Below, one piece after another: positions 25,163-38,234 of a stretch of DNA of 64,000 nt (the first letter of the stretch is position 1; the number at the start of each line of letters is the position of its first letter). This stretch comes from Kaistella sp. (GTDB lineage: Bacteria > Bacteroidota > Bacteroidia > Flavobacteriales > Weeksellaceae). Under the pieces are notes generated by a model, which searched no databases, was not told where the DNA came from, and saw only the letters and a list, made by a program, of their open reading frames with translations. The DNA lies in assembly GCA_019459085.1 (NCBI GenBank), contig JAIBEW010000029.1, positions 62,001-126,000 on the forward strand. The letters run 5' to 3'. The translations under genes and the position numbers were made by a program.

Positions 25163-27367
25163 TTAATTCACCCATATTTCATCGCAGGCCAGCAAAGGTT
25201 CTTTATTTTTACTGAAGATAAATGCGGGAAGTGCAGCCTGGTTTTCAGCGGTGATGCGCAAGTAGCGGGCCTTAATATTTAAATTTTTAAAAATTTTTTT
25301 AATTTTTTGTACGGTATAATCCTCTTCCGGCGGCGCAAGTTGCTCGAAACCAACTGTTTTGTAGTTTTTACCGTCGAGGCTGTATTCGATTTTTACTGTT
25401 TTCGGTCTTAAAATCCGGTGGCGGATGTCTTCCAGAAAATTCATTTCCACTCCCTCCACGTTCGTCATTTTTCCCAAATCAAGCGTGGCAATCATGGGTT
25501 TTCCGTAGAAACAGAGCCAGTTGAAGCTGAAATCACTGTAACCGGGGGTACCGTCGGTCAAGGTTTTTAAACCGTTCGCAGGAAATTCCGGAGCAAAAGG
25601 ATATTCAAACTGAACTTCAGCATTTAAAGCAAGGTTGTCGCGCACTCCTGTATTGAATATCATTTGCCATTGTTCGCCATATTTTTTTGGGGAAATACCT
25701 CCTTCGGAAAGTTCTTTAATTCGTGAAAGCTCTGACAGCTGAACAAACCGTTCCACGCGGTCCGCAAATCCATCTCTAACCTTCCATTCTGCACCGTGTT
25801 TTGTAAATATCCCGTGTTTTCTGGTGCCGTAGAATTTTGCCTGCTGCAGATAAGTGTAATCCATGGAAAGTCTAAGTTTTTGTATTCTCTTTGAAAAAAC
25901 TGCCTGCGTTTCAACCGATTCCTGAGCCTTGTCCATGATGTTACTCAATTCTTCGAGGTTTTCAGGAGTCAGAAAATCATTATAATTATTCACCGGATTG
26001 CCGTAAATATCGAGATTTGTTCCCGAAGCGACTACAAAACCGTATAATTTATTCATATAAGATTTCACAAACGGCGCGGCTTTTTGATAATAGCCTTTTA
26101 AAAAATCATCAGTTATCTGTTCCGCGTTGAGGTTGGGATTCCAAAGCAATTTGGCCAAAAGATAAGTTTTCAGTTCGGCAAACTCTCCGTATTCAGGACC
26201 GTTAAGCTGGGCAAAAACGCCCGCAACTTTTTTGTTTTGATAATATTTCAGATTGGGCGGAAAAGTTGAATAATTCGGAAAAGGTGCTAAAAAATTAGTG
26301 AATTGGGTGTAATAATCCCAGATAAAAATCCGGTCTGTTTTCGCTGACCAGCCTTCAAGATTTCGGCGGAATGCTTTTGCTGAAGCCTCCTCATCCACCG
26401 CAAATGTTCGGGTAATTTCAATATTGCTTAAAAATATAATGACATTTTTCTCCGGTTTTGTCACCAATGGCGGTCTCTCCGTCGCGTTGTAAGCCAGTGT
26501 TGTAAAAGTTCTTTCCGGAAAACGCTTTGCAATTCTGTTCACGAATTTCAGGAGAGATCCCTGATTTCCGCCGTCTTTTAAATCTGCAGCTCGGCATAAG
26601 CTGCATTCACAAAAACCGCTGTTGTCATTTGGGCTTACCGACCAGTATTCGGCATCCGGATTTTCTTTAAAAGCTTCTTCAAGGTTTTTGACAGAGATTT
26701 CAAAAACATCTTCATTACTCATACAGAGTTGTGTTGAATGTCTTTCACCGTTATAGTAAGCAAAATATTCAGGATGCGTATTAAACAAACTTTCGGGAAC
26801 CAGCCGGTCAAAACTGTGACCCCAAATTCCCCAAAGATCTTCCAGATTGTGAAGTTTGTGCCAGTTCAGGTATTCCCTGTCGGTTTCGGCCATCGAATAG
26901 ACTTCCCTAAAAAGAAATGAAGGTTCTTTCTCTATTTTAAGAGGTAACGGAATTTTTAGTCGCCGAAGAGGAGGGCAATATGCTTCTTCGCCGGGATTGA
27001 ACTTTCTGCAACCTAAAATTTCTTCTGCCAAGGAATACGCCGCATAAACAAGTCCCTTTTTATTGCCTTCAATGATTATATCATTTCCCTTGTTTACGAT
27101 TTTAAAAGATTCAGGAGAAATCCGGTCTCCGACATCCTTTAACTGAATGCTGAATTTTCCACCGGTATTTTTTAATGAAATTCCGCTGACTCTGCTGAAA
27201 TACTGACGGATGATTTCCGCTGACTCTTTTTCAAACGGAGATCCGGAGCCTGATGTAGAAATAACATAATCGCTCTTCTTTTCTGAAAAAAGAATGAGGG
27301 ATTTTGGAGTTTGTGCTTGCATTTGAAGACCTTTAATAAGCAGAAAAAAGAGAAACAGTTTCTTCAT
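25163..27367 (-). CDS. exported DUF4838 protein with C-terminal discoidin-like domain
   Basis: Signal peptide MKKLFLFFLLIKGLQMQAQ. An N-terminal alpha-glucuronidase-like segment (about residues 20-115: ESAEIIRQYFSRVSGI and NKGLVYAAYSLAEEILGCRKF) is followed by the DUF4838 catalytic-like domain (about 150-460: HSFDRLVPESLFNTHPEYFAYYNG, SVSPNDNSGFCECSLCRAAD, WDYYTQF). The last 150 residues form an F5/8 type C-like carbohydrate-binding domain (KIEYSLDGKNYKTV and ARYLRITAENQAALP). It probably acts on a glycan in the envelope or outside the cell; no substrate is known. The ATG at 27367 gives the signal peptide; the longer frame to 27418 would start at the predicted transcription start. Confidence 0.85.
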   Translation of the reverse strand: MKKLFLFFLLIKGLQMQAQTPKSLILFSEKKSDYVISTSGSGSPFEKESAEIIRQYFSRVSGISLKNTGGKFSIQLKDVGDRISPESFKIVNKGNDIIIEGNKKGLVYAAYSLAEEILGCRKFNPGEEAYCPPLRRLKIPLPLKIEKEPSFLFREVYSMAETDREYLNWHKLHNLEDLWGIWGHSFDRLVPESLFNTHPEYFAYYNGERHSTQLCMSNEDVFEISVKNLEEAFKENPDAEYWSVSPNDNSGFCECSLCRAADLKDGGNQGSLLKFVNRIAKRFPERTFTTLAYNATERPPLVTKPEKNVIIFLSNIEITRTFAVDEEASAKAFRRNLEGWSAKTDRIFIWDYYTQFTNFLAPFPNYSTFPPNLKYYQNKKVAGVFAQLNGPEYGEFAELKTYLLAKLLWNPNLNAEQITDDFLKGYYQKAAPFVKSYMNKLYGFVVASGTNLDIYGNPVNNYNDFLTPENLEELSNIMDKAQESVETQAVFSKRIQKLRLSMDYTYLQQAKFYGTRKHGIFTKHGAEWKVRDGFADRVERFVQLSELSRIKELSEGGISPKKYGEQWQMIFNTGVRDNLALNAEVQFEYPFAPEFPANGLKTLTDGTPGYSDFSFNWLCFYGKPMIATLDLGKMTNVEGVEMNFLEDIRHRILRPKTVKIEYSLDGKNYKTVGFEQLAPPEEDYTVQKIKKIFKNLNIKARYLRITAENQAALPAFIFSKNKEPLLACDEIWVN

Positions 27368-27424
27368 ATTCGGTGGTGAAATTTCGATAATAAAACATTT
27401 CGTGTTTCCTTGAATCACCGTCTA

Positions 27425-27432
27425 CAAATATA
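27425..27432 (-). promoter_or_regulatory. -7 promoter box for the DUF4838 gene
   Basis: TATATTTG on the minus strand; predicted start near 27418, about 50 bases before the ATG. Confidence 0.5.
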
Positions 27433-27514
27433 CCAATAGTCAAACTTAATCATCCCGATTTAAAACAAACATCGAAAATGAAGATTTCAAATCTGTTTTT
27501 TAAGCCATTATGTT

Positions 27515-27522
27515 TAATTTTG
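27515..27522 (+). promoter_or_regulatory. -7 promoter box for msrB
   Basis: TAATTTTG; predicted start near 27529, 15 bases before the msrB ATG. Confidence 0.55.
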
Positions 27523-27543
27523 ACTCAATCAATTTAAAGAAAA

Positions 27544-28074
27544 ATGAAATTCTTAATTTACCTGTCCGTTTTCATGTCTTTGCAAATGTGTTCGCAGGTG
27601 AAACACCCCGAAAAAGTTCAAACTATGGAAAATTTAACGTCAAAAACCAACCCTTACTATTCCCGAACCGACCGTACAAAACTTACGGTTACGAACGCAG
27701 AATGGAAAAAAATCCTTCCGGCAGACTTATATGCAATTGCGCGAGAAGCCGATACCGAAAGGCCTTTCACCGGAAAATACAATCAATTCGATGAACTTGG
27801 CGAATATCACTGCGCGGTCTGTGGAAATCATCTTTTCCGTTCAGATTCCAAATTTTCCTCCACCTGCGGTTGGCCGAGTTTTTTCGAAGCCGATAAAGAA
27901 GGAGTCGCTTACAACCGGGATTCCACACTCGGAATGGAGAGAACTGAAGTGGTCTGCAAACGCTGCGATTCTCACCTCGGCCACATTTTCAATGACGGTC
28001 CCGAACCTACCGGAATGCGGTACTGCATGAATTCAGTGAGCCTGGAATTTGTTGGAGATTCAGAGAAAAAATAA
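27544..28074 (+). CDS. msrB: peptide-methionine (R)-S-oxide reductase, exported
   Basis: Repairs methionine R-sulfoxide in proteins. The zinc cysteines are the CAVC and CKRC pairs, the catalytic cysteine is in GMRYCMNSVSL, and the fold motifs SSTCGWPSFF and SHLGHIFNDGP are intact. Length is 176 residues. The N-terminus (MKFLIYLSVFMSLQMCSQ) is a signal peptide with a possible lipobox, LQMC, so the enzyme is predicted to be an envelope lipoprotein rather than cytosolic. It is a single-gene unit; reductant supply in the periplasm is not visible here. Confidence 0.93.
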   Translation: MKFLIYLSVFMSLQMCSQVKHPEKVQTMENLTSKTNPYYSRTDRTKLTVTNAEWKKILPADLYAIAREADTERPFTGKYNQFDELGEYHCAVCGNHLFRSDSKFSSTCGWPSFFEADKEGVAYNRDSTLGMERTEVVCKRCDSHLGHIFNDGPEPTGMRYCMNSVSLEFVGDSEKK

Positions 28075-28157
28075 GCTGAAAATTGCTCTATTTGTGTTAA
28101 ACTCTCTTAAATTGCGTTAAACTTTTCGATTTTAACTCGTTGATTTATAAAGTTTTG

Positions 28158-28165
28158 TAAATTTG
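28158..28165 (+). promoter_or_regulatory. -7 promoter box for the L,D-transpeptidase-like gene
   Basis: TAAATTTG, with a TTG about 15 bases upstream; predicted start near 28172, 21 bases before the ATG. Confidence 0.6.
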
Positions 28166-28192
28166 CTGAACCAAATTTATTTAACATAATAT

Positions 28193-28942
28193 ATGAACAG
28201 ATTATTTCTTGCGCTTTCTGCCACTTTTGTATTGTCGACATCGTTCTACAAAAGTCCCGAAACGCACCTCAACAAAATAAACACTATCCCTGAAAATAAG
28301 AGTTCTGTTTACCCCATTGCCGACCTGAAAACTGAAACCAACTCCGCAGCGGAGATTTATAAGTCCATTGATTTCAGTTCCGGACATATCTTAAATTCCG
28401 ACGTTTTTGAAAAGGCCTTCCTCGGTTTTAACAATCTGAAAAAAGCTGCAAAACTGGATGAATCCGCAAACCTGCTGACGGTTATCGATTTTTCACTTTC
28501 TTCAACCCAAAAAAGACTCTGGGTCATTGATCTGGATACGAAAAAAGTGCTTTATAATTCCCTCGTTGCACACGGTAAGAACACGGGCGATGAATTTGCA
28601 AAAAACTTTTCGAACACTGAAAGTTCTTTGCAGTCGAGCATGGGATTTTATATTACAAAAAGCACTTACACCGGAGAAAACGGCTACTCCCTGAAACTTT
28701 TGGGAATGGATCCCGGTTTTAACGACAATGCCTATAAAAGAGCTGTGGTAATGCACGGCGCCGATTATGTGAGCGATGATTTCATTAAATCTCAGCACCG
28801 GATCGGCAGAAGTTGGGGCTGCCCGGCGGTTCCACGCGAACTTGCGCAACCCATCATCAATACCATCAAAGGGAAAAACTGCCTTTTCATTTATTTTCCC
28901 GATCAGGATTACCTGAATAGTTCCCAATGGCTTAAAGCATAA
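28193..28942 (+). CDS. murein L,D-transpeptidase-like catalytic domain protein
   Basis: A 249-residue exported protein (hydrophobic N-terminus MNRLFLALSATFVLSTSF). Its catalytic region resembles the second L,D-transpeptidase family: IDFSLSSTQKRLWVIDLDTKKVLYNSLVAHGKNTGDEFA, then VVMHGADYVSDDF and HRIGRSWGCPAVPRELAQPII, with the catalytic Cys in WGCPAV and the conserved His in MHGA. It is predicted to act on peptidoglycan crosslinks or on a related periplasmic peptide. It is monocistronic with a bidirectional terminator after it. Confidence 0.88.
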   Translation: MNRLFLALSATFVLSTSFYKSPETHLNKINTIPENKSSVYPIADLKTETNSAAEIYKSIDFSSGHILNSDVFEKAFLGFNNLKKAAKLDESANLLTVIDFSLSSTQKRLWVIDLDTKKVLYNSLVAHGKNTGDEFAKNFSNTESSLQSSMGFYITKSTYTGENGYSLKLLGMDPGFNDNAYKRAVVMHGADYVSDDFIKSQHRIGRSWGCPAVPRELAQPIINTIKGKNCLFIYFPDQDYLNSSQWLKA

Positions 28943-28965
28943 AATAATTGATACATTTTTAGAAG

Positions 28966-29000
28966 AAAAAGGATTTCAAAACAATTTGAAATCCTTTTTT
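28966..29000. terminator. bidirectional terminator between converging genes
   Basis: The stem AAAAAGGATTTCAAA/TTTGAAATCCTTTTT with loop ACAA has A and T runs on both sides. It serves the L,D-transpeptidase-like gene (plus) and the HMA TonB receptor (minus). Confidence 0.9.
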
Positions 29001-29021
29001 GATGCATTTTTTTGAAGGTTT

Positions 29022-31679
29022 TTAAAACTTAAGATCTACTCCAACATAAAAGTTGGCGGGCATAATGGGTGCGTAAACCATTCCGCCATCAAAATAATTG
29101 CTGAAAGGATTCTGAGCATCAATGATAACATTTTCCTGCGTATAACCCGTCAGGTTTTCGCCACCGGCATACACGCGGATGTTTTTGTTGAAATCTTTTG
29201 AAACCTGAGCATTCAGCGTTACATAAGAATCCGAATATTCCGGAAGCTGAAATTCTGCAGGATTCCCATTTAAATTCGGGAGTTTCTGTTGGCCGACATA
29301 CTGCAAAGTCGTGTCGAAAGACCAAAATCCTTCTCTTTTATCTTTCGCTGTTGCATACGAAGCGTTGAAGAATCCACGGTTTTTCGCCATGAAAGGAATT
29401 TCTCTTCTGCCTTCCATAAAATTGGCCTGCACATCATAATATTTGTAGGCCATTCTGAATTCAAGATTTTTGATAACCGAAAAGTCCAGCTGGGTTTGAA
29501 AACTGTTGGCAAAGGATTTCCCTGCAAGGTTATAAAAGACGATTTTCTGGGGCGAAACGTCGAGATCGGCTAAAACCTGATCCTGAAAATCGGTTCTGAA
29601 AAAATCGGCCACTAAAGTAGCTTTTTTGCTGAAAAGTTTGAATTCCTGTTGCAAACTGATACCGTAATTCCAGGCAATTTCAGGTTTTAAGTGATAGATC
29701 TCGCCACCGTTTCCGAGAATTTCTATTTTCCTGTTGGATGCAAAATACTGCTGGTTTTCGGCAAAAACGTTCGCAGTTCGGAATCCTCTTCCGGCAGAAA
29801 GCCGGACAATGGTTTTCGGCGTGAAATCATATTTGAAATTAAGCCGCGGTGTGAACTGCGTTCCGGCGAGATTATGAAAATCGGCTCTGGCTCCTGCAAC
29901 CAAAGTGTATTTAAGACCGGTGTGGGTGTATTCGAGAAAGAGACCGGGAACGGTTTCAGTTCTTTTAAAATTTTCGGTCAGATAATCTTCATCAAATTTA
30001 TCATACATAAAGCTCGCTCCGGTTTTGTATTTATGATTTGTATTTCCAATGATGCTTTCGAATATCAGATTGGAATAAAATGTATTTTGATTCCCTGAAT
30101 AATCCCTTAAACCAAAGAAACTGTTTTGCTGATGGTAAGTGAACTGATTCATCCAGCCAATGCTTTGGTAAGGTTTTCCTTTAAACACATGTCCGGTTTT
30201 GTTCCAGACCTGAAATCTGGAAATGTCAATTCCAACGCCGTAAAGACTTTGCTCAGACTGATCGAGTTTTTTATCATATCCCATCTGACCGGCATTTCTG
30301 GTATCCTTCAGAAAATTAATTCCGAAATGCGACGCCCAGCCTTTGTGTTCCAAATCGCTGTAATTCAGCAAATAAGCAACGTTCAACTGGTTACCGGTAG
30401 GCTGATCCATAAAACCGTCATCGTTCGTATCCATTTCATTTAAAGTGGCATTTCCGTGAAGCAGTAAGGTCTGGTTCCAGTGTTCTGAAAGCATTGCTGT
30501 ACTCGTAATATTCATTTCCGTTCTTGAATTGGCATCTGCAAAAACATTCAAACCTGTTTCCGGTGCGGTATCCAATTTTAAAAGTTCGGTGTTAATCTGT
30601 CCGGTGATGCTTTCATAACCGTTTGTTACGGTGCTTCCGCCTTTGGTAAGCTGAATTCCGCCAATCCATCTTCCGGGAATGAAATTCAGGCCGTAAGCCG
30701 AAGCCAAGCCCCGGATTTCAGGCAGAAGTTCTTTGGTAAGACTCGTATATTTCTGATCCAAACCCAACATTTTAAGCTGCTTGGTTCCCGTAACTGCATT
30801 GCTGAAAGAAACATCAACCGTTGCATTGGTTTCAAAACTTTCCGACAAATTACAGCAGGCCGCTTTCAGCAGTTCTTTTGAACTGATATTGAAGGTCAAG
30901 GCGGCATTTTTTTTACTTAAAGCAGTAGCTTCTTCCAGTTTCGTCAGCGTAACGCCTTCAATAGTATTCACTGAATGGGAATCGTGATCTACAGGCCCAC
31001 CGTCCTGATGCACCAAACCGCTTTTTACTCCCAATGGCAATGAGCGGTCATAAAGACAGCAGCCCGGAAGATTTTTATAAATTTCATCGGTCGCTTTGTA
31101 TTTTTCGTTATCATGACCTACTTCAGCAATTTTTTTCAGAATGGCATCAGCTGATGTTTTTTCCGGGCTGAAATCCAAAATAACCGTCTGGGTTTCGGCG
31201 TCCCAATTCGCAGATACCGCACCCGCATCTTTTGCGGCCTTTTCAATTCGTGTTTTGCACATGCCGCAATTTCCCTTTACAAAAAACCGGTTTTCAGTTT
31301 TCGAAGGATTTAAAATTTCAGATGTGGTCTCATTTATCAAAAAAGAAGGAGTCCGCTCATAATGGCAACAGGCCGGAAGATTATCGTAAACCGAATCGGA
31401 TGAGGTAAATTTTTCGTTGTCGTGACCTACTTCCGCAATTTTTTTAAGCAGATGATCAGTACTCACTTTTTCAGCGTCGTACGCAACTGAAAGCTGCTGA
31501 GTTTCCGCATTCCAGTTGGCGTAGGTTGCACCGGATTCTTTGGCAGTGGTTTCGATCCTTTCCTTACACATACCGCATTCCCCTTTTACTTTAAAAGTGG
31601 ACTTGGCGATGGTTTGGGCAAAAATATTTTGAACAGTGAAAAGAAGGAGAATAAAAAGACTTTTAAATAAAGTTTTCAT
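29022..31679 (-). CDS. TonB-dependent receptor with two N-terminal heavy-metal-associated modules
   Basis: An 885-residue outer-membrane receptor. After a signal peptide (to about AQ22) come two tandem HMA modules, residues 26-109 and 129-212. Each has the metal motif CGMCKxRIE (Cys35/38 and Cys138/141) and ends with VGHDNEK...YxNLPxCCxY (Cys104-105 and 207-208). A short His/Asp-rich linker follows (about 224-235). The plug starts near residue 268 with a further Cys pair (AACCNLSESFETN, 275-276) and NFIPGRWIGGIQLTKGGSTVTNGYESITGQINTEL. The C-terminal barrel ends FYVGVDLKF. HMA domains bind soft metals such as Cu(I), so transport or sensing of copper or a similar metal is inferred. It is last in a five-gene minus-strand run. 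Confidence 0.93.
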   Translation of the reverse strand: MKTLFKSLFILLLFTVQNIFAQTIAKSTFKVKGECGMCKERIETTAKESGATYANWNAETQQLSVAYDAEKVSTDHLLKKIAEVGHDNEKFTSSDSVYDNLPACCHYERTPSFLINETTSEILNPSKTENRFFVKGNCGMCKTRIEKAAKDAGAVSANWDAETQTVILDFSPEKTSADAILKKIAEVGHDNEKYKATDEIYKNLPGCCLYDRSLPLGVKSGLVHQDGGPVDHDSHSVNTIEGVTLTKLEEATALSKKNAALTFNISSKELLKAACCNLSESFETNATVDVSFSNAVTGTKQLKMLGLDQKYTSLTKELLPEIRGLASAYGLNFIPGRWIGGIQLTKGGSTVTNGYESITGQINTELLKLDTAPETGLNVFADANSRTEMNITSTAMLSEHWNQTLLLHGNATLNEMDTNDDGFMDQPTGNQLNVAYLLNYSDLEHKGWASHFGINFLKDTRNAGQMGYDKKLDQSEQSLYGVGIDISRFQVWNKTGHVFKGKPYQSIGWMNQFTYHQQNSFFGLRDYSGNQNTFYSNLIFESIIGNTNHKYKTGASFMYDKFDEDYLTENFKRTETVPGLFLEYTHTGLKYTLVAGARADFHNLAGTQFTPRLNFKYDFTPKTIVRLSAGRGFRTANVFAENQQYFASNRKIEILGNGGEIYHLKPEIAWNYGISLQQEFKLFSKKATLVADFFRTDFQDQVLADLDVSPQKIVFYNLAGKSFANSFQTQLDFSVIKNLEFRMAYKYYDVQANFMEGRREIPFMAKNRGFFNASYATAKDKREGFWSFDTTLQYVGQQKLPNLNGNPAEFQLPEYSDSYVTLNAQVSKDFNKNIRVYAGGENLTGYTQENVIIDAQNPFSNYFDGGMVYAPIMPANFYVGVDLKF

Positions 31680-31707
31680 TTATATAAATTAATTAAATTA
31701 AATATTG

Positions 31708-31731
31708 AGCTGAAAGAACATTCTTTCGGCT
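31708..31731. promoter_or_regulatory. 11-bp inverted repeat upstream of the HMA TonB receptor
   Basis: AGCTGAAAGAA (31708-31718) pairs with TTCTTTCGGCT (31721-31731) around a 2-base centre, with one G-U pair. It lies between the Cys-rich gene and the receptor, 29 bases before the receptor ATG. No strong T-run follows on the minus strand. It could be an operator, an attenuator hairpin or a processing site. Confidence 0.5.
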
Positions 31732-31744
31732 ATACATCAATCAA

Positions 31745-32113
31745 TTAACCTATTTTGGGCGGTTGCCAGATTTTAGAATCGGAAGTGGAAAATTCGGGCG
31801 TGAGATAAGTATATTTCTCTTTTTTTAATGAAATGAAATTTAACAGCTGTGTGGTTTTACCTCCAGATGTGATTCCGAAAAAAACAAAAGATATGGTGCA
31901 GGTGTGGCACTTCGTGCAGTTTCCTTCACAGGAATTTTCTTCGTTTTCATGACAGGGTTTTTTGGGCTCTTTCTCTGTTTTACAGCAGTCTTTTTGCGAA
32001 GACTCTTTTTCGCAGCAGGAAATTTCAGGAGTTTGGGCATCGACAATCTGTTTAGGAAGAATAAATATTCCTAAACAGAGCATCAACAAAAGTATTTGAA
32101 ATTTTTTCGCCAT
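31745..32113 (-). CDS. small Cys-rich exported protein, probable metal binding
   Basis: 122 residues. A hydrophobic signal segment (residues 5-20, cleavage near DAQ) is followed by a dense cluster of nine cysteines between residues 33 and 72: CC33-34, CC43-44, C54, C62, C66, C69, C72, interspersed with His. Next comes a hydrophobic stretch (SFVFFGITSG) and a C-terminal tail ending WQPPKIG. The layout is loosely like the HYC_CC_PP-type proteins of Bacteroidota, but the HYC motif itself is absent, so I leave it unnamed. It lies between the His/Cys-repeat lipoprotein and the HMA receptor, and its -7 box makes the mRNA nearly leaderless. Confidence 0.75.
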   Translation of the reverse strand: MAKKFQILLLMLCLGIFILPKQIVDAQTPEISCCEKESSQKDCCKTEKEPKKPCHENEENSCEGNCTKCHTCTISFVFFGITSGGKTTQLLNFISLKKEKYTYLTPEFSTSDSKIWQPPKIG

Positions 32114-32121
32114 TTATGTAG

Positions 32122-32129
32122 CAAATTTA
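32122..32129 (-). promoter_or_regulatory. -7 promoter box for the Cys-rich gene
   Basis: TAAATTTG on the minus strand. The transcription start would be about 32115, within a few bases of the ATG at 32113, suggesting a nearly leaderless mRNA that probably includes the HMA receptor. Confidence 0.5.
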
Positions 32130-32145
32130 CAAAAAAACGCGGAAT

Positions 32146-32766
32146 CTAAGGAAGCGGATCTCCTACCTGTAAATCGCAACGGTGAAAAGGTGCGCCGTGC
32201 GCTGGATTTTTTGCCGGTTTTTCGCCGCTAGCTACGGCATTTTGAGCAGGTACCGGTGATGGAGTTGGCTGTGGAGTTACTGCAGAAGTTTGCGCTTTTG
32301 GTGAACTCAACGGAGCTCCCACTGCGATATCGCAACGGTGGCCGGGTTCGCCATGCGCAGGATTCATTCCCGGAGCGGTTTTGCCTGTTGTTGTGGGTTT
32401 TACAGTTGTTTGCTGCGGTACAATATTCACCGACTGCTGGTTTGATACAGGCACCGGCTGTTTTACAGGAGCAGGCGCTGCGGTTTTCATCGGGCTGGTA
32501 TCAAATCCTGAAAAAGCACCTTGATTCGTTGCCGAAACACTCTGTGCAGGAGTACCGTTCAGCGGCGCTCCTACCGCAATATCGCAGCGGTGACCCGGTT
32601 TGCCGTGTTCCGGATTAAGAGCCCCGGTTTCACCGGACTTTGCTGTATTTGCAGTGCCGGAAACGGCAGTCTTGGATGCTTTGTCGCTTACTTTATCTGT
32701 TTTCTGCTCTTTCGTACACGAAAAAACCAAAAAACTTAAAGCGATTACTGGAATTATATTTTTCAT
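32146..32766 (-). CDS. lipoprotein with three NPxHGxPxHRCDxxVGxPL repeats
   Basis: 206 residues with lipobox LVFSC (Cys17). Three copies of a 19-residue motif, NPxHGxPxHRCDxxVGxPL, occur at residues 51-69, 135-153 and 187-205, separated by Thr/Pro/Gln/Ala-rich linkers that look disordered. Each copy has two invariant His and one invariant Cys, suggesting a metal or haem ligand set; this is inference. The third copy ends one residue before the C-terminus. I do not know an established name for this repeat. It has its own -7 box and sits directly upstream of the Cys-rich protein and the HMA receptor. Confidence 0.8.
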   Translation of the reverse strand: MKNIIPVIALSFLVFSCTKEQKTDKVSDKASKTAVSGTANTAKSGETGALNPEHGKPGHRCDIAVGAPLNGTPAQSVSATNQGAFSGFDTSPMKTAAPAPVKQPVPVSNQQSVNIVPQQTTVKPTTTGKTAPGMNPAHGEPGHRCDIAVGAPLSSPKAQTSAVTPQPTPSPVPAQNAVASGEKPAKNPAHGAPFHRCDLQVGDPLP

Positions 32767-32784
32767 TCTTTATTCTTTAAAAAT

Positions 32785-32792
32785 CAAAAGTA
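32785..32792 (-). promoter_or_regulatory. -7 promoter box for the repeat lipoprotein
   Basis: TACTTTTG on the minus strand; predicted start near 32779, 13 bases before the ATG. Confidence 0.5.
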
Positions 32793-32842
32793 GCAAAAAC
32801 ATTTGACATGATTTGCCTCGTTCTCTATGGTTTTGGCAGCTT

Positions 32843-33529
32843 CTAGTTTTTCACCAAAAGTCTGAACCCTTCGCCGTGAACATTGATGATTTCAAGACCA
32901 TCATCTTCTCTCAGCAGTTTACGGAGTTTTGCGATATATACATCCATACTTCTTGCGGTGAAATAATTTTCTTTTTTCCAGATTTTTCTCAAAGCAAGAT
33001 CTCGCGGCATAAAATCATTGCGGTGCTGGCAAAGCAATTTCAACAATTCATTTTCTTTTGGTGAAAGTTTGTAATCTGTATCATTTACTCTGAGCTGTCT
33101 CAACATCGAATCAAAGAAAATATTGCTGATCTTGAACTGTTCCTGATCTTCATCTTCCAGTGAAGTACTTCTCTGGAGAATTGCTTTTATTTTGTACAGC
33201 AGAAGTTCCGTATCAAAAGGTTTGGTGATATAATCATCTGCCCCCAACTGATAGCCTTTCAGGATATCTTCGCGCATATTCCTTGCGGTAAGGAATATAA
33301 TCGGGGTGTTTTTATCGATTTTCTTCACATCTTCCGCTAGTGAAAATCCGTCTTTTTTCGGCATCATCACATCGAAAATACAGATGTCGAATTCATTTTC
33401 GGTGAATTCTTTCAGACCCTGTTCTCCGTCTGTTGCCAAAGTCACTTCAAAATTATTGATGGATAAATAATCTTTAAGCACTGCGCCGAAACTTTGGTCA
33501 TCTTCTACTAATAAGATTCTGTTGCTCAT
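32843..33529 (-). CDS. OmpR-family response regulator (RprY-like)
   Basis: 228 residues: a receiver domain (1-120) with the acidic pocket VEDD near residue 8, the phospho-acceptor Asp in CIFDVMMPKKDGF (about residue 53), and the conserved Lys in TKPFD (about residue 104). A winged-helix DNA-binding domain follows (about 130-226: YKLSPKENELLKLLCQHRNDFMPRDLALRKIW and VYIAKLRKLLRED). It resembles RprY of Bacteroides. It lies 66 bases downstream of the sensor kinase and upstream of the metal-type lipoprotein, in the same orientation. Confidence 0.92.
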   Translation of the reverse strand: MSNRILLVEDDQSFGAVLKDYLSINNFEVTLATDGEQGLKEFTENEFDICIFDVMMPKKDGFSLAEDVKKIDKNTPIIFLTARNMREDILKGYQLGADDYITKPFDTELLLYKIKAILQRSTSLEDEDQEQFKISNIFFDSMLRQLRVNDTDYKLSPKENELLKLLCQHRNDFMPRDLALRKIWKKENYFTARSMDVYIAKLRKLLREDDGLEIINVHGEGFRLLVKN

Positions 33530-33595
33530 AATATTGGTTTTTGTAGATTTATTGGACTGATAAAGATCTTTCGATCTTTAGTTTTTTATTAAATT

Positions 33596-35143
33596 TTAAT
33601 GGATCATCGGGATTTTCAGCGTGAAAGTGCTTCCCTTTCCTTTGTGGGATTCCACGATCACCTGACCTTTGTGAAGTTCGATGATTTTTTTCACATAAGA
33701 CAAACCGAGACCCTGTCCTTTTACATTATGGATGTTCCCGGTTTCTTCGCGAAAGAATTTTTCAAAGATCTTCAGTTTATTGTCGGTTTCCATTCCCATT
33801 CCCTTATCCGAAATTTCCAGAACGTAAAAATTGCCTTCGTTTCTGGTGGTAATCGTGATCTCAGGCGCGTCAGGGGAATATTTATTGGCATTGTCGAGCA
33901 GATTTACGAGCGCATTTGAGATGTGAAACTCATCGATCTTGAAAATATATTCTTCGGCAGTAAAATTCTGGATCAGTTTGCCGTTCCGCTGTGCAACAAT
34001 CAGGATAAACGATTGCGTAATCCCTTTGATCAATTCGCGGACATTGGTTTCCTTCAGGAATAATTTCACTTCATTTCTTTCGAGTTTCGACATATTCAAA
34101 ACATTCTCAACCTGTTTTTTCATGCGCTGGTTCTCCTGCTTGATGAGGTGCGAATAGTACTTCACTTTCTCGGGATTTGTCGCAATTTTATCGTTCGCAA
34201 GTGAATCGGTAGCCACAGAAATGGTCGCAAGCGGCGTCTTGAATTCATGCGACATGTTGTTGATGAAATCCGTCTTCACTTCCGCAATTTTTTTCTGGCG
34301 CATCATGTAATTGATGGAAATAATATAAATCCCTAAAATGGTGAGCAGTGACATGAATGTTCCCAAAAGCATCGGCAGATTGTTTTTCGCCAGCAACGAA
34401 TCCTTTCTCGGGAAAACGAGCGCGAGGGAATATAAAGTTCGGTCATTTCTATCGGTAAAAAGCGGATAGGTATAATTCGACTTGTCTTTCTGGTCAAGAT
34501 AAACTCCGTTGACGATTTTTGTCGGTTTGTTATTCTTGTCAAGCACTGCAAAACCGAATTTCGTATTCAACCCTTTCATTTTCAGCTCTTTTGTAAGAAC
34601 AGAATCCAGAATTCTGCTTTCAACTCTTTTCGCAATAGGAATGTTTTCGCCAACCAGCTGTACAAACGATCTTGAATTAAATTCACCATTGTCGATAGAC
34701 TGGCTCAGTTCAGCAGTTAAAGCTTCCGGAGTATTCGCGTTTTTTTTAATCTGAATCAACGCTTCATCCGTGTACATATTGGTAAGCTTCAAACTGTCAC
34801 CGGTTTTCGAAATGGGAATGTCTTTTTTCTCAATAATACTTTTTGAATAGGTGATCTGCCTTTTAGAAGCAGAATCCTCGACCTGCGAAATAACGGTTAG
34901 CGACGGCTGACTGCTGTTTTCCTTGATCGTTTTATCTATATTATTATATTTCGCATAGTATTTGTCGATCTCTAAATCTCCAACCTTTTTTGTAGAAGTT
35001 TCCATCGCTGCATACACCTTATTCGAAAAATCCTGGTCGAGCGCACTGTATAGTTCCTTAATCCAATACAGCTGTAACGTGACGAAAACCACCATGGAAA
35101 TCGTCATCAATACTGATATTATCGGAATAAATTTGTTATTCAT
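33596..35143 (-). CDS. sensor histidine kinase (RprX-like)
   Basis: 515 residues. Two membrane spans (about residues 7-28 and 255-278) flank a sensor domain of about 225 residues predicted to be periplasmic. The phospho-acceptor His is in NNMSHEFKTPLATISVATDSL (about residue 300). The ATPase boxes are N (LVNLLDNANKYSPDAP), G1 (EISDKGMGMETDN) and G2 (KGQGLGLSYVKKII). No HAMP domain is obvious between span 2 and the H box. It is the first gene of the pair with the RprY-like regulator. The signal sensed is unknown. Confidence 0.92.
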   Translation of the reverse strand: MNNKFIPIISVLMTISMVVFVTLQLYWIKELYSALDQDFSNKVYAAMETSTKKVGDLEIDKYYAKYNNIDKTIKENSSQPSLTVISQVEDSASKRQITYSKSIIEKKDIPISKTGDSLKLTNMYTDEALIQIKKNANTPEALTAELSQSIDNGEFNSRSFVQLVGENIPIAKRVESRILDSVLTKELKMKGLNTKFGFAVLDKNNKPTKIVNGVYLDQKDKSNYTYPLFTDRNDRTLYSLALVFPRKDSLLAKNNLPMLLGTFMSLLTILGIYIISINYMMRQKKIAEVKTDFINNMSHEFKTPLATISVATDSLANDKIATNPEKVKYYSHLIKQENQRMKKQVENVLNMSKLERNEVKLFLKETNVRELIKGITQSFILIVAQRNGKLIQNFTAEEYIFKIDEFHISNALVNLLDNANKYSPDAPEITITTRNEGNFYVLEISDKGMGMETDNKLKIFEKFFREETGNIHNVKGQGLGLSYVKKIIELHKGQVIVESHKGKGSTFTLKIPMIH

Positions 35144-35297
35144 TTTCTGGATTTTCGTTTTGAAATGTTAAAATTAGTCATTTTAAGACTATCATAACAA
35201 TAAAATATTGAAATTATTACATCCGATTTGTTAAAAAAACTCGTTTTAACAGATTATATATTTTTATACTTCTGCTCTTCCATCAAAATAATTCCTT

Positions 35298-35305
35298 TAA
35301 ATTTG
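35298..35305 (+). promoter_or_regulatory. -7 promoter box for the SRPBCC gene
   Basis: TAAATTTG; predicted start near 35312, nine bases before the ATG at 35321. Confidence 0.55.
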
Positions 35306-35320
35306 TTGAAAATAGCGGTT

Positions 35321-35815
35321 ATGAATACAACAATTGTCTTTAATAAAGATTTCGATGCTTTCAGTGTTTTTGTGATGAAGGTTTTTCCTGCAGACGTTAC
35401 TGATGTCTGGGAACATTTCACGAAAGCAGATTTGCTCGACGAATGGTGGGCTCCACAACCCTGGAAATGCGAAACTGTGAACATGGATTTCCGTGAAGGC
35501 GGAACCTGGAATTATGCGATGCTAGGGCCGCAAAACGAGAAACAATTTGCCGGTGCTAATTATCATGAGATCACTTTCCACAGAAGTTTTGACTGGACTG
35601 ATTATTTTACCGATGAAAACGGGCAAATGAACAGCGAACTGCCGACCGTGAAATGGCTTTTCGGGTTTACCGGTGTTGAAGAAGGCACAAAACTCACCGT
35701 CAATATTCATTTTAATTCTGCAGAAGATCTGAACCAGCTTCTGGAACTGGGCTTTGAAGAAGGCTTCAGCACGGCGCTGAATCAATTGGAAGGAGTTTTA
35801 AGCAAAAAAGACTGA
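35321..35815 (+). CDS. SRPBCC (AHSA1-type) domain protein
   Basis: A 164-residue single-domain protein of the START/Bet v1-like fold. Typical family sequence: VFPADVTDVWEHFTKADLLDEWWAPQPWKCETVNMDFREGGTWNYAMLGP, then FTGVEEGTKLTVNIHFNSAEDLNQLLELGFEEGFSTALNQLEGVL. These proteins bind hydrophobic ligands or modulate Hsp90-like chaperones; this one's ligand is unknown. The frame is open upstream to 35228, but that region lies before the promoter box, so the ATG at 35321 is used. The stop codon is inside the following terminator stem. Confidence 0.88.
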   Translation: MNTTIVFNKDFDAFSVFVMKVFPADVTDVWEHFTKADLLDEWWAPQPWKCETVNMDFREGGTWNYAMLGPQNEKQFAGANYHEITFHRSFDWTDYFTDENGQMNSELPTVKWLFGFTGVEEGTKLTVNIHFNSAEDLNQLLELGFEEGFSTALNQLEGVLSKKD

Positions 35816-35832
35816 TTTGAATCAGTCTTTTT
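35805..35832. terminator. bidirectional terminator between converging genes
   Basis: The stem AAAAAGACTGAT/ATCAGTCTTTTT has loop TTGA. It contains the SRPBCC stop codon and ends just before the stop of the minus-strand 117-aa gene. Confidence 0.88.
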
Positions 35833-35835
35833 CAT

Positions 35836-36189
35836 TTAAGCGAACAATTCTTCATCCAAGAAATACTGAATGATGGCTTTCTTCATCAAAATCTGCTGCT
35901 CATTGGGTTTAAGATCAGGGAGTTTTTCCACTTCCTCGAAATGCGGATAACCGTCATCATCGTAATGCGAAAATTTATAATAACCGAAAGGTTCTAAAAG
36001 TCTGCAGACTGCAATATGCAGAATATTGAGCTTGTCGTCTTTCGTATATTTCTGCTGACCGCTGCCCAGTTCCTGAACCCCGATCAGGAATAAAATCGTG
36101 TCGATCTGCGGATTTTTCTCCGTATCGAAATTTTGGACAAAAAATTCTTCAACTTTGGTCCAAAGTTCACCTTCTGTAATGTTTTCCAT
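35836..36189 (-). CDS. conserved-looking 117-aa protein, function unknown
   Basis: An acidic, soluble, mostly helical protein: MENITEGELWTKVEEFF, then FLIGVQELGSGQQKYTKDDKLNILHIAVCRLLEPFGYY and a mixed-charge segment HYDDDGYPHFEEVEKLPDL. No signal peptide or membrane span. I do not recognise a named domain. The start ATG overlaps the stop of the oligopeptidase gene by one base (TAATG), so translation is probably coupled to it. Confidence 0.75.
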   Translation of the reverse strand: MENITEGELWTKVEEFFVQNFDTEKNPQIDTILFLIGVQELGSGQQKYTKDDKLNILHIAVCRLLEPFGYYKFSHYDDDGYPHFEEVEKLPDLKPNEQQILMKKAIIQYFLDEELFA

Positions 36190-38234
36190 TAAATTTTTTC
36201 TTCTAATTTTAATAAAAAGGCATATTCCAACGCGTCTTCTTTCAGGCTTTCGAATCTTCCCGAAGCGCCGCCGTGTCCGGAACTCATATCGGTTTTAAAA
36301 ACCAGGATATTGGAGTCGGTTTTCAGTTCGCGGAGTTTTGCCGTCCATTTTGCGGGTTCCCAATACTGTACCTGAGAATCGTGCAAACCGGTCGTAATCA
36401 ACATATGCGGGTAATCTTTGGCAGTTATATTGTCGTACGGAGAATATGATTTCATATAATCGTAGTATTTTTTGTTTTTCGGATTTCCCCACTCGTCGAA
36501 TTCTCCGGTCGTTAAAGGAATGGTTTCATCGAGCATCGTTGTAACCACATCTACAAAAGGAACCTGCGCCACAATTCCGTTGAAAAGTCCCGGTTCTTCG
36601 TTGATGACCGCGCCGAGTAAAAGTCCGCCAGCGGAACCGCCCATCGCATAAAGATGCTTTTCGGAAGTGTAATTTTCAACAATTAAAAATTTTCCGGCAT
36701 CAATAAAATCAAAAAAAGTGTTTTTCTTGTTCAGCATTTTGCCGTCTTCATACCATTCTCTTCCCAAATATTCACCGCCGCGGATGTGTGCGATTGCATA
36801 AATGAATCCGCGATCCAAAATGGAAAGACGCACATTCGAAAAACTCGCATCAACCGTATGTCCGTAACTTCCGTAACCGTACAAAAGGAGTGGAGTTTCG
36901 GTCGATTTTTCAGTGTTTTTGTGATAAACCAGAGAAATGGGAATTCTGTTCTTTCCGTCGCGCGAAGGAGCCCAGATCCGTTCCGAAACATAATCTTCCT
37001 GTACAAAACCGCCGCCCAAAACTTCCTGTTCCTTCAGGATTTTGGTGGTCTTTTCCTTCATATCGTATTCCAGCGTGGAATTGGGTTTCGTGAGCGAGGT
37101 ATAACCAAAACGCAGTTTTTGCGTATCGAATTCCAGATTCAAACCGATATAGGCCGTGTAAGTGGGATCTGAAAAATTGAGATATTGCGATTCACCCGTT
37201 TGGTTATCGATGATTTTGATATAAAGCAGTCCTTCGGTTCTCTCTTCAATAACGAAATAATTATTAAAGATTTCAAAGCCTTCCAATAAAGTTTCTTCCC
37301 GGTGCGGAATCACATCTACCCAGTGTTCCATACCGGGATTTTCAACTTTCGTTTTTACGATTTTGAAATTCGTGGCGTCATCAGCATTCGTAATGATATA
37401 AAATTCATCTTTATAATGTTCTACGGCATATTCCAGATCATCGATTCGGGACTGAACCATTTTCCAAGGAGCCATCACATCATTTGCCGGAATAAACTGG
37501 TGTTCATCTGAAATCGTGCTGGAACTTGCAATGAAAATATATTCCAGAGATTTGGTTTTAAAAACGTTTACATCAAAAGTTTCATCTTTTTCGTGAAAAA
37601 CCAAGAGATCCTGAGAAGAATCGGTTCCGAGCTGATGCATATACACCTGAAACGCACGGAGACTGTCGTCTTTCCGGATGTAGAAAACATGCTCATTGTC
37701 ATTTGCCCAAACTGCTTTTCCGGTCGTATTGGGAATCTGATCCTGATAAATTTCGCCGGTTACGAGGTTTTTGAACTGAATGGAATAAATTCTTCTGCCG
37801 ATTTCGTCGGAAGAAAAACTCATGAGTTTGTTGTCCGGAGACACGGCCACACTGCCGACTTCGAAAAAACTCTTGCCATCAGCCAGAATATTTACATCCA
37901 GAAGTATTTCCTCACTGTTTTCAAGACTCTGAAATTTTCTGCTGAAAACGGGATATTCTTTCCCCGTCTCGAACCTAACGATATACCAGTATCCGTTGAA
38001 AAAGTAAGGCAGACTTTCGTCGTCTTCCTTGTATCTGGCTTTCATTTCAAGGAATAGCTTTTCCTGAAGCTCTTCGGTATCCTTCATCAACAAATCGCAG
38101 TAAGCATTTTCGGCTTCAAGATACTGGATCACTTCCGGATTTTCTCTTTCGTTCATCCAGAAGTAATGGTCGATACGTTTATCGCCATGGGTTTCCAATA
38201 TTTTTTCTGTTTTTTTTGCTTTCGGGATGTTCAT
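36189..38234 (-). CDS. ptrB: S9A peptidase, oligopeptidase B-like
   Basis: Serine oligopeptidase: an N-terminal seven-bladed propeller (about residues 60-400) gates a C-terminal alpha/beta-hydrolase domain. The nucleophile is in MGGSAGGLLLG (about residue 525) and the catalytic His in MSSGHGGASGRF near the C-terminus. LLLYGYGSYGHTVDASFSNVRLSILDRGFIYAIAHIRGGEYLGREWYEDGK is typical of the family. It cleaves short peptides, usually after basic residues. No signal peptide. The frame begins at a TTG within the -7 box; the ATG at 38234 gives 681 residues. Confidence 0.92.
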   Translation of the reverse strand: MNIPKAKKTEKILETHGDKRIDHYFWMNERENPEVIQYLEAENAYCDLLMKDTEELQEKLFLEMKARYKEDDESLPYFFNGYWYIVRFETGKEYPVFSRKFQSLENSEEILLDVNILADGKSFFEVGSVAVSPDNKLMSFSSDEIGRRIYSIQFKNLVTGEIYQDQIPNTTGKAVWANDNEHVFYIRKDDSLRAFQVYMHQLGTDSSQDLLVFHEKDETFDVNVFKTKSLEYIFIASSSTISDEHQFIPANDVMAPWKMVQSRIDDLEYAVEHYKDEFYIITNADDATNFKIVKTKVENPGMEHWVDVIPHREETLLEGFEIFNNYFVIEERTEGLLYIKIIDNQTGESQYLNFSDPTYTAYIGLNLEFDTQKLRFGYTSLTKPNSTLEYDMKEKTTKILKEQEVLGGGFVQEDYVSERIWAPSRDGKNRIPISLVYHKNTEKSTETPLLLYGYGSYGHTVDASFSNVRLSILDRGFIYAIAHIRGGEYLGREWYEDGKMLNKKNTFFDFIDAGKFLIVENYTSEKHLYAMGGSAGGLLLGAVINEEPGLFNGIVAQVPFVDVVTTMLDETIPLTTGEFDEWGNPKNKKYYDYMKSYSPYDNITAKDYPHMLITTGLHDSQVQYWEPAKWTAKLRELKTDSNILVFKTDMSSGHGGASGRFESLKEDALEYAFLLKLEEKI

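Follow-up and report, generated by a model that had tools for sequence, protein, structure and literature searches.

What brings a sensor kinase, a response regulator, a lipoprotein, a small cysteine-rich protein and an outer-membrane receptor together in one short run of bacterial DNA? The question is raised by a 64,000-nucleotide stretch of the Kaistella sp. contig JAIBEW010000029.1 (the window), for which an earlier annotation (the original prediction) had proposed one soft-metal pathway through the cell envelope, perhaps controlled by the adjacent two-component pair. The open reading frame (ORF) list agrees with that annotation on five co-oriented genes on the minus strand, with the claimed gaps of 66, 76, 32 and 65 bases between them. 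We find that the three exported genes form a conserved unit and, on balance, lean towards reading them as a copper-acquisition module of which the Cys-rich gene is the built-in copper sensor. The three genes are as follows.

29022-31679, minus strand: TonB-dependent receptor, 885 residues, two N-terminal HMA domains (Pfam HMA and TonB barrel)
31745-32113, minus strand: Cys-rich exported protein, 122 residues, ending in IWQPPKIG, proposed copper-sensing leader of the CutF/CruR kind (alignments)
32146-32766, minus strand: lipoprotein with lipobox Cys17 and three HGxPxHRC micro-repeats (ORF list, repeat search)

A conserved gene unit around an HMA-bearing receptor

Lipoprotein and receptor lie side by side, at most about 500 bases apart on one strand by match coordinates, in all 35 genomes of the window's genus. 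In each of the 18 same-genus loci that were fetched, the Cys-rich, receptor and lipoprotein genes are adjacent and co-oriented; 17 have them in that order, 13 of these between genes for YkuD and MsrB, and only one (G021) has the gene order of the window, kinase and regulator included. The five-gene order kinase, regulator, lipoprotein, Cys-rich protein, receptor nevertheless extends beyond close strains, being kept in 49/49 loci of Chryseobacterium, a different genus of the same family (in L169 in broken frames). These 49 belong to 80 named loci, the best 80 of 489, selected for encoding the lipoprotein; the remaining 31 (29 from Flavobacterium or Flavobacteriaceae, 2 from Sphingobacteriales) have the lipoprotein without the module in the fetched stretch. 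A third genus of the family (G387, locus L135) has an intermediate form, with a Cys-rich protein, a separate HMA protein, an HMA-bearing receptor and the lipoprotein.

Receptor homologues occur in 53 of 60 relatives at E ≤ 1e-30, a limit that may take in other receptors. In other families 16 receptor loci were read by eye: Cys-rich, HMA and receptor genes stand together in nine (with the HMA fused in L089), Cys-rich and receptor genes in three, HMA and receptor genes in two (one at a contig end) and the receptor alone in two. What recurs across Bacteroidota is a core of three: a small Cys-rich protein, an HMA protein that is exported, and a TonB receptor whose plug carries a Cys-Cys pair. In most of the other Bacteroidota loci read, a separate gene encodes the HMA protein; the window receptor has two HMA domains fused to it. 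In a plasmid collection, four records matched and three were examined: those of Parabacteroides and Bernardetia carry the trio, annotated just as hypothetical protein, TonB-dependent receptor and heavy-metal-associated domain protein. A search of the plasmids for the lipoprotein gave no match.

The receptor itself scores 40.2 bits for HMA (Pfam PF00403, cut-off 24.8) over two stretches, each with the CxxC of that family, and the use of this signature as a pointer to copper-like metals is upheld. Its cysteines come only as five pairs (C35/C38, C104/C105, C138/C141, C207/C208 and C275/C276): each HMA CxxC (35-38, 138-141) is followed by a CC pair (104-105, 207-208), and the last pair lies in the plug, in AACCNLSESF. 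The plug pair is present in 19/19 receptors from outside the genus that cover the site, out of 20 picked by BLAST (one fragment does not cover it); an earlier set had been chosen partly by the Cys-Cys pattern itself, and the comparison was repeated with the BLAST-only picks. His516 aligns with a histidine in 18/20 receptors outside the genus. Against solved structures the HMA domains match copper ATPase and CopZ chains best, with zinc ATPase and MerP weaker. In a predicted structure both HMA domains have per-residue confidence (pLDDT) values mostly of 79-91; they are the sole usable part of a model built with 31 sequences, all close homologues, in which the whole receptor is poor (mean 45.9) and no metal site could be placed. 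Domains ahead of the plug of TonB receptors lie on the periplasmic side. The HMA domains, N-terminal to the plug, should therefore be periplasmic, where they would receive metal rather than capture it. From these domains, the Cys pairs and the parallels discussed below we infer that the metal is copper, with other soft metals possible.

TonB receptors import, which speaks against assigning the module to metal detoxification or efflux, and no metal efflux pump was seen by eye among the printed neighbours of the window, five Chryseobacterium loci and L135, the other loci being unchecked. A related receptor in a Haliscomenobacter plasmid record, preceded by an HMA-like small protein, does have CusA/CzcA genes 3.6 kb downstream, and outer-membrane efflux genes are what most often follows CutF-like proteins in the available part of PMC9973294. 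An efflux role seems to us improbable.

The Cys-rich protein as a candidate leader

If the module imports copper, what does its smallest gene contribute? The single envelope pathway of the original prediction stands in so far as the three exported genes are a unit; the capture role that it gave to the Cys-rich protein is better explained otherwise. By its sequence and by analogy, the protein is probably a copper-sensing leader of the CutF/CruR type. Its N-terminus, read from the sequence, is hydrophobic after KK. At 122 residues it falls under the 150-residue limit of the CutF-like filter (PMC9973294), and the next gene, the receptor, begins 65 bases downstream. Neither this protein nor the lipoprotein matches a Pfam or NCBIfam family above cut-off.

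The middle of the family is highly variable, while the cysteines and the last residues are kept: in a 16-row alignment C43, C44, C62, C66, C69 and I115-K120 are invariant, and the extreme C-terminus, IWQPPK, is the longest conserved stretch. Across 74 loci, every protein ends in IW[QE]PPK plus two residues (IWQPPK in 72, IWEPPK in 2), which places exactly three residues after PP (P118-P119 of 122 in the window). The 74 sequences, 73 of them distinct, include the window and one locus each of two further genera (L081 and L135), and count some genomes twice, as an unnamed and a named record; L169, whose genes are broken pieces, was dropped as a 75th. BLAST or a QPPK ending served to identify the genes, and every module-bearing locus yielded one. 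From the last CxxC to the tryptophan there are 40-45 residues (41 in 52/74, 43 in the window); the CxxC before it (C66-C69) gives 46 in the window by hand count. Just 4 of 564 other ORFs of 60-160 residues have PP at the same C-terminal place, and three of these four are Cys-rich proteins of further modules (L089, L097 and L102).

Similar tails are found further afield. In distant modules, 14 small Cys-rich proteins were compared, and in 13 of them a PP falls among the last 20 residues, followed by either 3 or 12-17 more (two tail classes). The L089 group (L089 itself matches DUF6660 below cut-off) aligns with the window's family over 23 C-terminal columns at a probability of 94.6. The second tail class (L085, L087, L090-L094, L096, L235 and L236) is rich in aromatic and hydrophobic residues after PP. 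Of 10 small Cys-rich proteins scanned from the same position of other Bacteroidota modules, 4 score over the cut-off of 28 for HYC_CC_PP (NF047658), namely L085 (very strongly), L090, L096 and L098, whereas the window protein has no match; a profile comparison of the two families gave a probability of 22.9, weak and in Cys-rich low-complexity sequence, and their similarity was set aside. One relative (L066) weakly matches CzcI (16.7 bits, cut-off 100).

Two characterised systems offer the closest parallels. CruR is an exported copper-sensing leader with Cys motifs and a proline-rich end that controls a TonB transporter (PMC9426467). In Bordetella pertussis, according to the available parts of PMC9426467 and PMC12914433, it is a small exported CxxC protein directly upstream of a TonB-dependent receptor (BfrG/CrtA), as here, and the two proteins are also alike in having PP three residues from the C-terminus and a similar CxxC-to-PP spacing; a CxxC about 45 residues before the PP motif with conserved spacing, a trait of the DUF2946 family, is present in the window protein. 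The C>G bubble described for CruR is mildly positive over most of the Cys-rich gene (maximum 0.167 per 78-base window), a value that lacks a proper control and is not used as evidence. CutF of Rhodobacter capsulatus, as far as the accessible text of PMC9973294 describes it, has a CxxxC motif and a proline-rich tail, with a stem-loop between it and the next gene, cutO; the window shares with it the sequence of exported Cys-motif protein, proline-rich tail, stem-loop and putative regulated gene.

The same portion of that paper lists 5,334 CutF-like proteins, 19% of them from Bacteroidota (40% after normalisation), with TonB-like genes among their most frequent neighbours. CutF-like proteins in Bacteroidota and before TonB genes were thus already predicted, and the kind is known in outline; the present analysis adds a form that ends in IWQPPK, a hairpin at a set place and a receptor fused to HMA domains. 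A survey of RAPP/RGPP leaders (PMC12992588, available part) places TonB-related ones throughout Gram-negative bacteria and reports other copper-related ones as lacking in Bacteroidota. WQPPK would escape a search for those two motifs.

Hairpin, promoter boxes and proposed mechanism

How might such a leader act on the receptor gene? Three further elements bear on this.

31709-31730, minus strand: conserved intercistronic stem-loop, bases 15-36 after the stop of the Cys-rich gene (covariation, placement in 74 loci)
32122-32129, minus strand: -7 box of the Cys-rich gene, TAAATTTG, Bacteroidota type (box scan; 44/49 Chryseobacterium loci)
32785-32792, minus strand: -7 box of the lipoprotein gene, TACTTTTG (box scan; 46/49 Chryseobacterium loci)

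The Bacteroidota -7 box has the consensus TAnnTTTG. The separate boxes that had been noted upstream of the lipoprotein and Cys-rich genes are present in the window and kept in Chryseobacterium, where 46/49 and 44/49 loci, respectively, carry one, as against 2.8-2.9% of random 60-mers of the window; before the receptor gene the count is 0/49, with the first in-frame start codon taken as the receptor start, in some loci possibly too early.

The hairpin is supported by compensatory change. In 19 loci of the window's genus, six of its nine pairs have changed on both sides and 88.3% of cells are paired; none of 500 shuffles reached the covariation score, and versions slid along the alignment had at most one such pair. 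A stem of at least 7 pairs at this place, which was fixed after the data had been seen, occurs in 57 of the 74 loci, compared with 8.8% of shuffles, and in 32 of 64 stem-bearing loci the hairpin starts at the 15th base after the stop. The Chryseobacterium hairpin has another sequence, GTTCATTA...TAATGAAC, with its stem at the same place as in the window's genus. A stem-loop between leader and regulated gene, as in CutF-type systems, is thus present, as RNA or as a DNA palindrome, which would covary alike.

Taken with the parallels, these elements suggest a mechanism. One transcript would run from the -7 box before the Cys-rich gene into the receptor gene. The nascent Cys-rich protein would be exported, and its Cys cluster would meet copper. 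The ribosome would slow at the C-terminal IWQPPK and, together with the hairpin after the stop, set the amount of receptor; by analogy with Bordetella CruR, copper would be expected to reduce expression of the receptor. Driven by TonB, the receptor would bring in a copper species and pass the ion to its HMA domains in the periplasm and to its Cys pairs. Expressed from a promoter of its own, the lipoprotein may bind the same metal through its H-x4-H-x-C repeats, either on the cell surface or on the inner side of the outer membrane.

Several observations weigh against this account. The first concern the leader: its tail is WQPPK and not RAPP or RGPP, the proven ribosome-arrest motifs and, in the case of RAPP, the C-terminal mark of the DUF2946 family; DUF2946 (PF11162) matches neither the Cys-rich protein nor anything in its own genome at E ≤ 10; and among the 14 Cys-rich proteins of distant modules only 4 have CxxC, PP is followed by exactly three residues in only 3, and one (L098) has no PP. 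Others concern the hairpin, whose place was chosen with the counts in view. On one measure, 'further pair types', 67 of 500 shuffles did at least as well, and 17/74 loci lack a stem of at least 7 pairs. Counted by hand from the first base of the first proline codon, the hairpin starts after about 32 bases, a distance at which a ribosome stalled there would be too far away to melt it directly. The hairpin may also be an operator in the DNA or a site of processing. The receptor, for its part, differs from CrtA as described in print, and a search of it for the OprC copper motif (CxxxM ... HxM) found neither part. Finally, the Flavobacterium lipoprotein gene is not near the receptor, and another Weeksellaceae genome (G036, locus L081) carries the module without the lipoprotein.

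The known systems differ from the window in further respects. From CruR the locus departs by the 65-base gap with its hairpin, in place of 162 bases. CrtA receptors, in the accessible part of PMC12914433, have no conserved cysteine and are followed in more than 75% of loci by a PepSY_TM gene, whereas the window receptor has HMA domains and a conserved plug Cys pair, and PepSY was not matched among eight window proteins scanned. For CutF, the available text of PMC9973294 gives a multicopper oxidase as the next gene, expression that copper raises, and a hairpin that hides the Shine-Dalgarno sequence; here none is seen by eye between hairpin and receptor start. With OprC-type copper receptors, whose motif is taken from the available part of PMC11213822, the window receptor shares its class and the proposal of copper import, and has Cys-Cys in its plug where the OprC motif is absent.

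Much of this would also suit metal handling without any leader, with the Cys-rich protein as an ordinary periplasmic metal carrier or sponge from which the HMA domains obtain copper (or zinc, silver or mercury), and the hairpin as an element of mRNA stability or processing. The five invariant cysteines, the hydrophobic N-terminus, the gene's own promoter box, the want of an arrest motif of proven type and the weak HMA matches to mercury and zinc proteins are all compatible with a carrier. A carrier has no obvious need, however, of IWQPPK as its longest conserved stretch, of an end fixed at three residues in 74/74 proteins, or of a hairpin held at a preferred distance with two unrelated sequences, and we regard it as an unlikely, though serious, contender.

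To our knowledge, outer-membrane copper uptake in Bacteroidota is little studied. A literature search, judged largely by its listings, showed no published account of the module in this phylum; it did not include the repeat and did not cover supplementary lists (including that of PMC9973294). Should the copper-import account be right, a widespread unnamed receptor family with its own copper-sensing leader would answer how Bacteroidota import copper, and in the repeat of the lipoprotein there would be a new metal-binding peptide that is easy to synthesise. It is possible, though we think it less likely than not, that the locus reveals two new things: Bacteroidota nascent-chain metal sensors that combine a C-terminal IWQPPK arrest with a hairpin at a preferred post-stop distance and control an HMA-bearing TonB copper importer; and a metal-binding micro-domain of about 20 residues, NPxHGxPxHRC[DE][IL]xVGxP[LI], present two or three times per lipoprotein and supplying the importer (probably at the cell surface in Chryseobacterium).

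The lipoprotein repeat, the two-component pair and the neighbourhood

The three His/Cys repeats ascribed to the lipoprotein are located as three copies of a 19-residue repeat, at residues 51-69, 135-153 and 187-205.

32557-32622, minus strand: lipoprotein repeat 1, ALNPEHGKPGHRCDIAVGAPLN (repeat search)
32305-32370, minus strand: lipoprotein repeat 2, GMNPAHGEPGHRCDIAVGAPLS (repeat search)
32149-32214, minus strand: lipoprotein repeat 3, AKNPAHGAPFHRCDLQVGDPLP (repeat search)

Is the repeat a metal site? It was found in 35 of 395 Bacteroidota genomes, 32 of them convincing, and in those 32 always as two or three copies at one genomic place; the other three matches are weak (E 0.0019-0.0098) and probably due to chance. 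Among 324 units from 116 proteins, collected with a pattern that left the Cys position free and fixed most others, the cysteine is present in 324/324, while 56 units differ at the arginine and 54 at the acidic residue. No copy that had lost one to three of eight key residues (both histidines and the cysteine among them) turned up in a looser scan. The invariant cysteine and the lack of degenerate copies favour H-x4-H-x-C as a metal site, and from its sequence we infer that the lipoprotein is an accessory metal binder with an unnamed repeat. In an AlphaFold model the motif blocks reach pLDDT 73-91 and most of the rest lies below 50; single bridge residues at both ends of each motif are suggestive only. 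The repeat profile matched no solved structure up to E 10.

In Bacteroidota the signal for surface export is C-x-K-(D/E)2 after the lipid-bearing cysteine (PMC5080379, available part); the window protein, with CTKEQ, has half of it, and C[KN]KDE occurs in 49/49 Chryseobacterium homologues, whose loci contained no other predicted lipoproteins that would give a background rate. With the Flavobacterium gene standing apart from the receptor, a role of the lipoprotein outside the module is possible. In another family (L137) the gene and a CopZ-like gene converge, about 20 bases apart. One Chryseobacterium copy (L148, 7800-8399) meets an in-frame stop in its third repeat right after H-N, where relatives have the cysteine.

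The two remaining genes of the five-gene run are the two-component pair.

32843-33529, minus strand: OmpR-family response regulator, RprY-like, a neighbour probably outside the module (Pfam Response_reg and Trans_reg_C; NCBIfam)
33596-35143, minus strand: sensor histidine kinase, the regulator's partner, a neighbour (Pfam HisKA and HATPase_c; position in relatives)

That this pair senses the metal and switches one envelope pathway, as the original prediction suggested, would fit the five-gene order of the window, G021 and all 49 Chryseobacterium loci, and a putative Porphyromonas TonB receptor, PG2008, is listed among the genes in a study of RprY, with 1.03-fold in one column and 3.11-fold (P 0.062) in the other (PMC3646045, available part). 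The pair, together and single-copy in 35/35 same-genus genomes (E ≤ 1e-100 and 1e-70), nevertheless lies beside the module only in G021 and elsewhere in the other 34. Regulator and receptor also occur each without the other: five relatives (G039, G044, G045, G052 and G057) have a regulator and no receptor match, and nine have the reverse. The lipoprotein and Cys-rich genes, moreover, retain promoter boxes of their own, and the RprY paper concerns sodium and oxidative stress, the words copper and metal being absent from the available part of its text. The regulator's best NCBIfam model is RprY (NF051850), at 297.2 bits under a cut-off of 370, which leaves it outside the family. Control of the module by the pair was set aside on gene order and co-occurrence and seems to us very unlikely; to judge from the genomes compared, the pair is probably a general regulator, adjacent by happenstance in this lineage and in Chryseobacterium.

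Downstream of the receptor, one further element lies in the gap to the convergent YkuD gene.

28965-29000, plus strand: long inverted repeat with a 16-pair stem, a possible transcription end (terminator-like scan)

Sites of this kind are consensus matches only, 10 in the region against 6.2 expected. A scan of 26000-38000 against Rfam matched no family. GTTAAAC repeats about 20 bases apart (28096-28122), upstream of the YkuD gene, look like a direct-repeat site of an OmpR-type regulator, and in many same-genus loci similar GTTAAA/TTTAAC repeats can be seen by eye where the YkuD and Cys-rich genes diverge. An operator shared by these two genes was set aside: the window's YkuD promoter, no longer next to the Cys-rich gene, keeps a similar element, which therefore more likely belongs to YkuD. 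An MsrB with a lipoprotein-like N-terminus (27544-28074) is encoded near the module, as in 16/18 of the fetched same-genus loci, and a redox link of MsrB to copper is conceivable.

Two other places in the same genome also concern metals. About 1-6 kb left of the window's start (L084, 177-5247), ORFs resembling cbb3 oxidase, CcoS and a FixI-type copper ATPase were recognised by eye, with an HMA match; the oxidase-like ORFs would be a copper client on the window's own contig. A second heavy-metal cluster on contig C27 (L103, 5182-10118) holds a Cys-rich ORF of 138 residues, possibly another leader, upstream of an ORF starting MILYIKNMVCNRCK, as well as an HMA-transporter-like ORF and a 923-residue protein with a heavy-metal-binding start, CPMHPQV...CPICGM.

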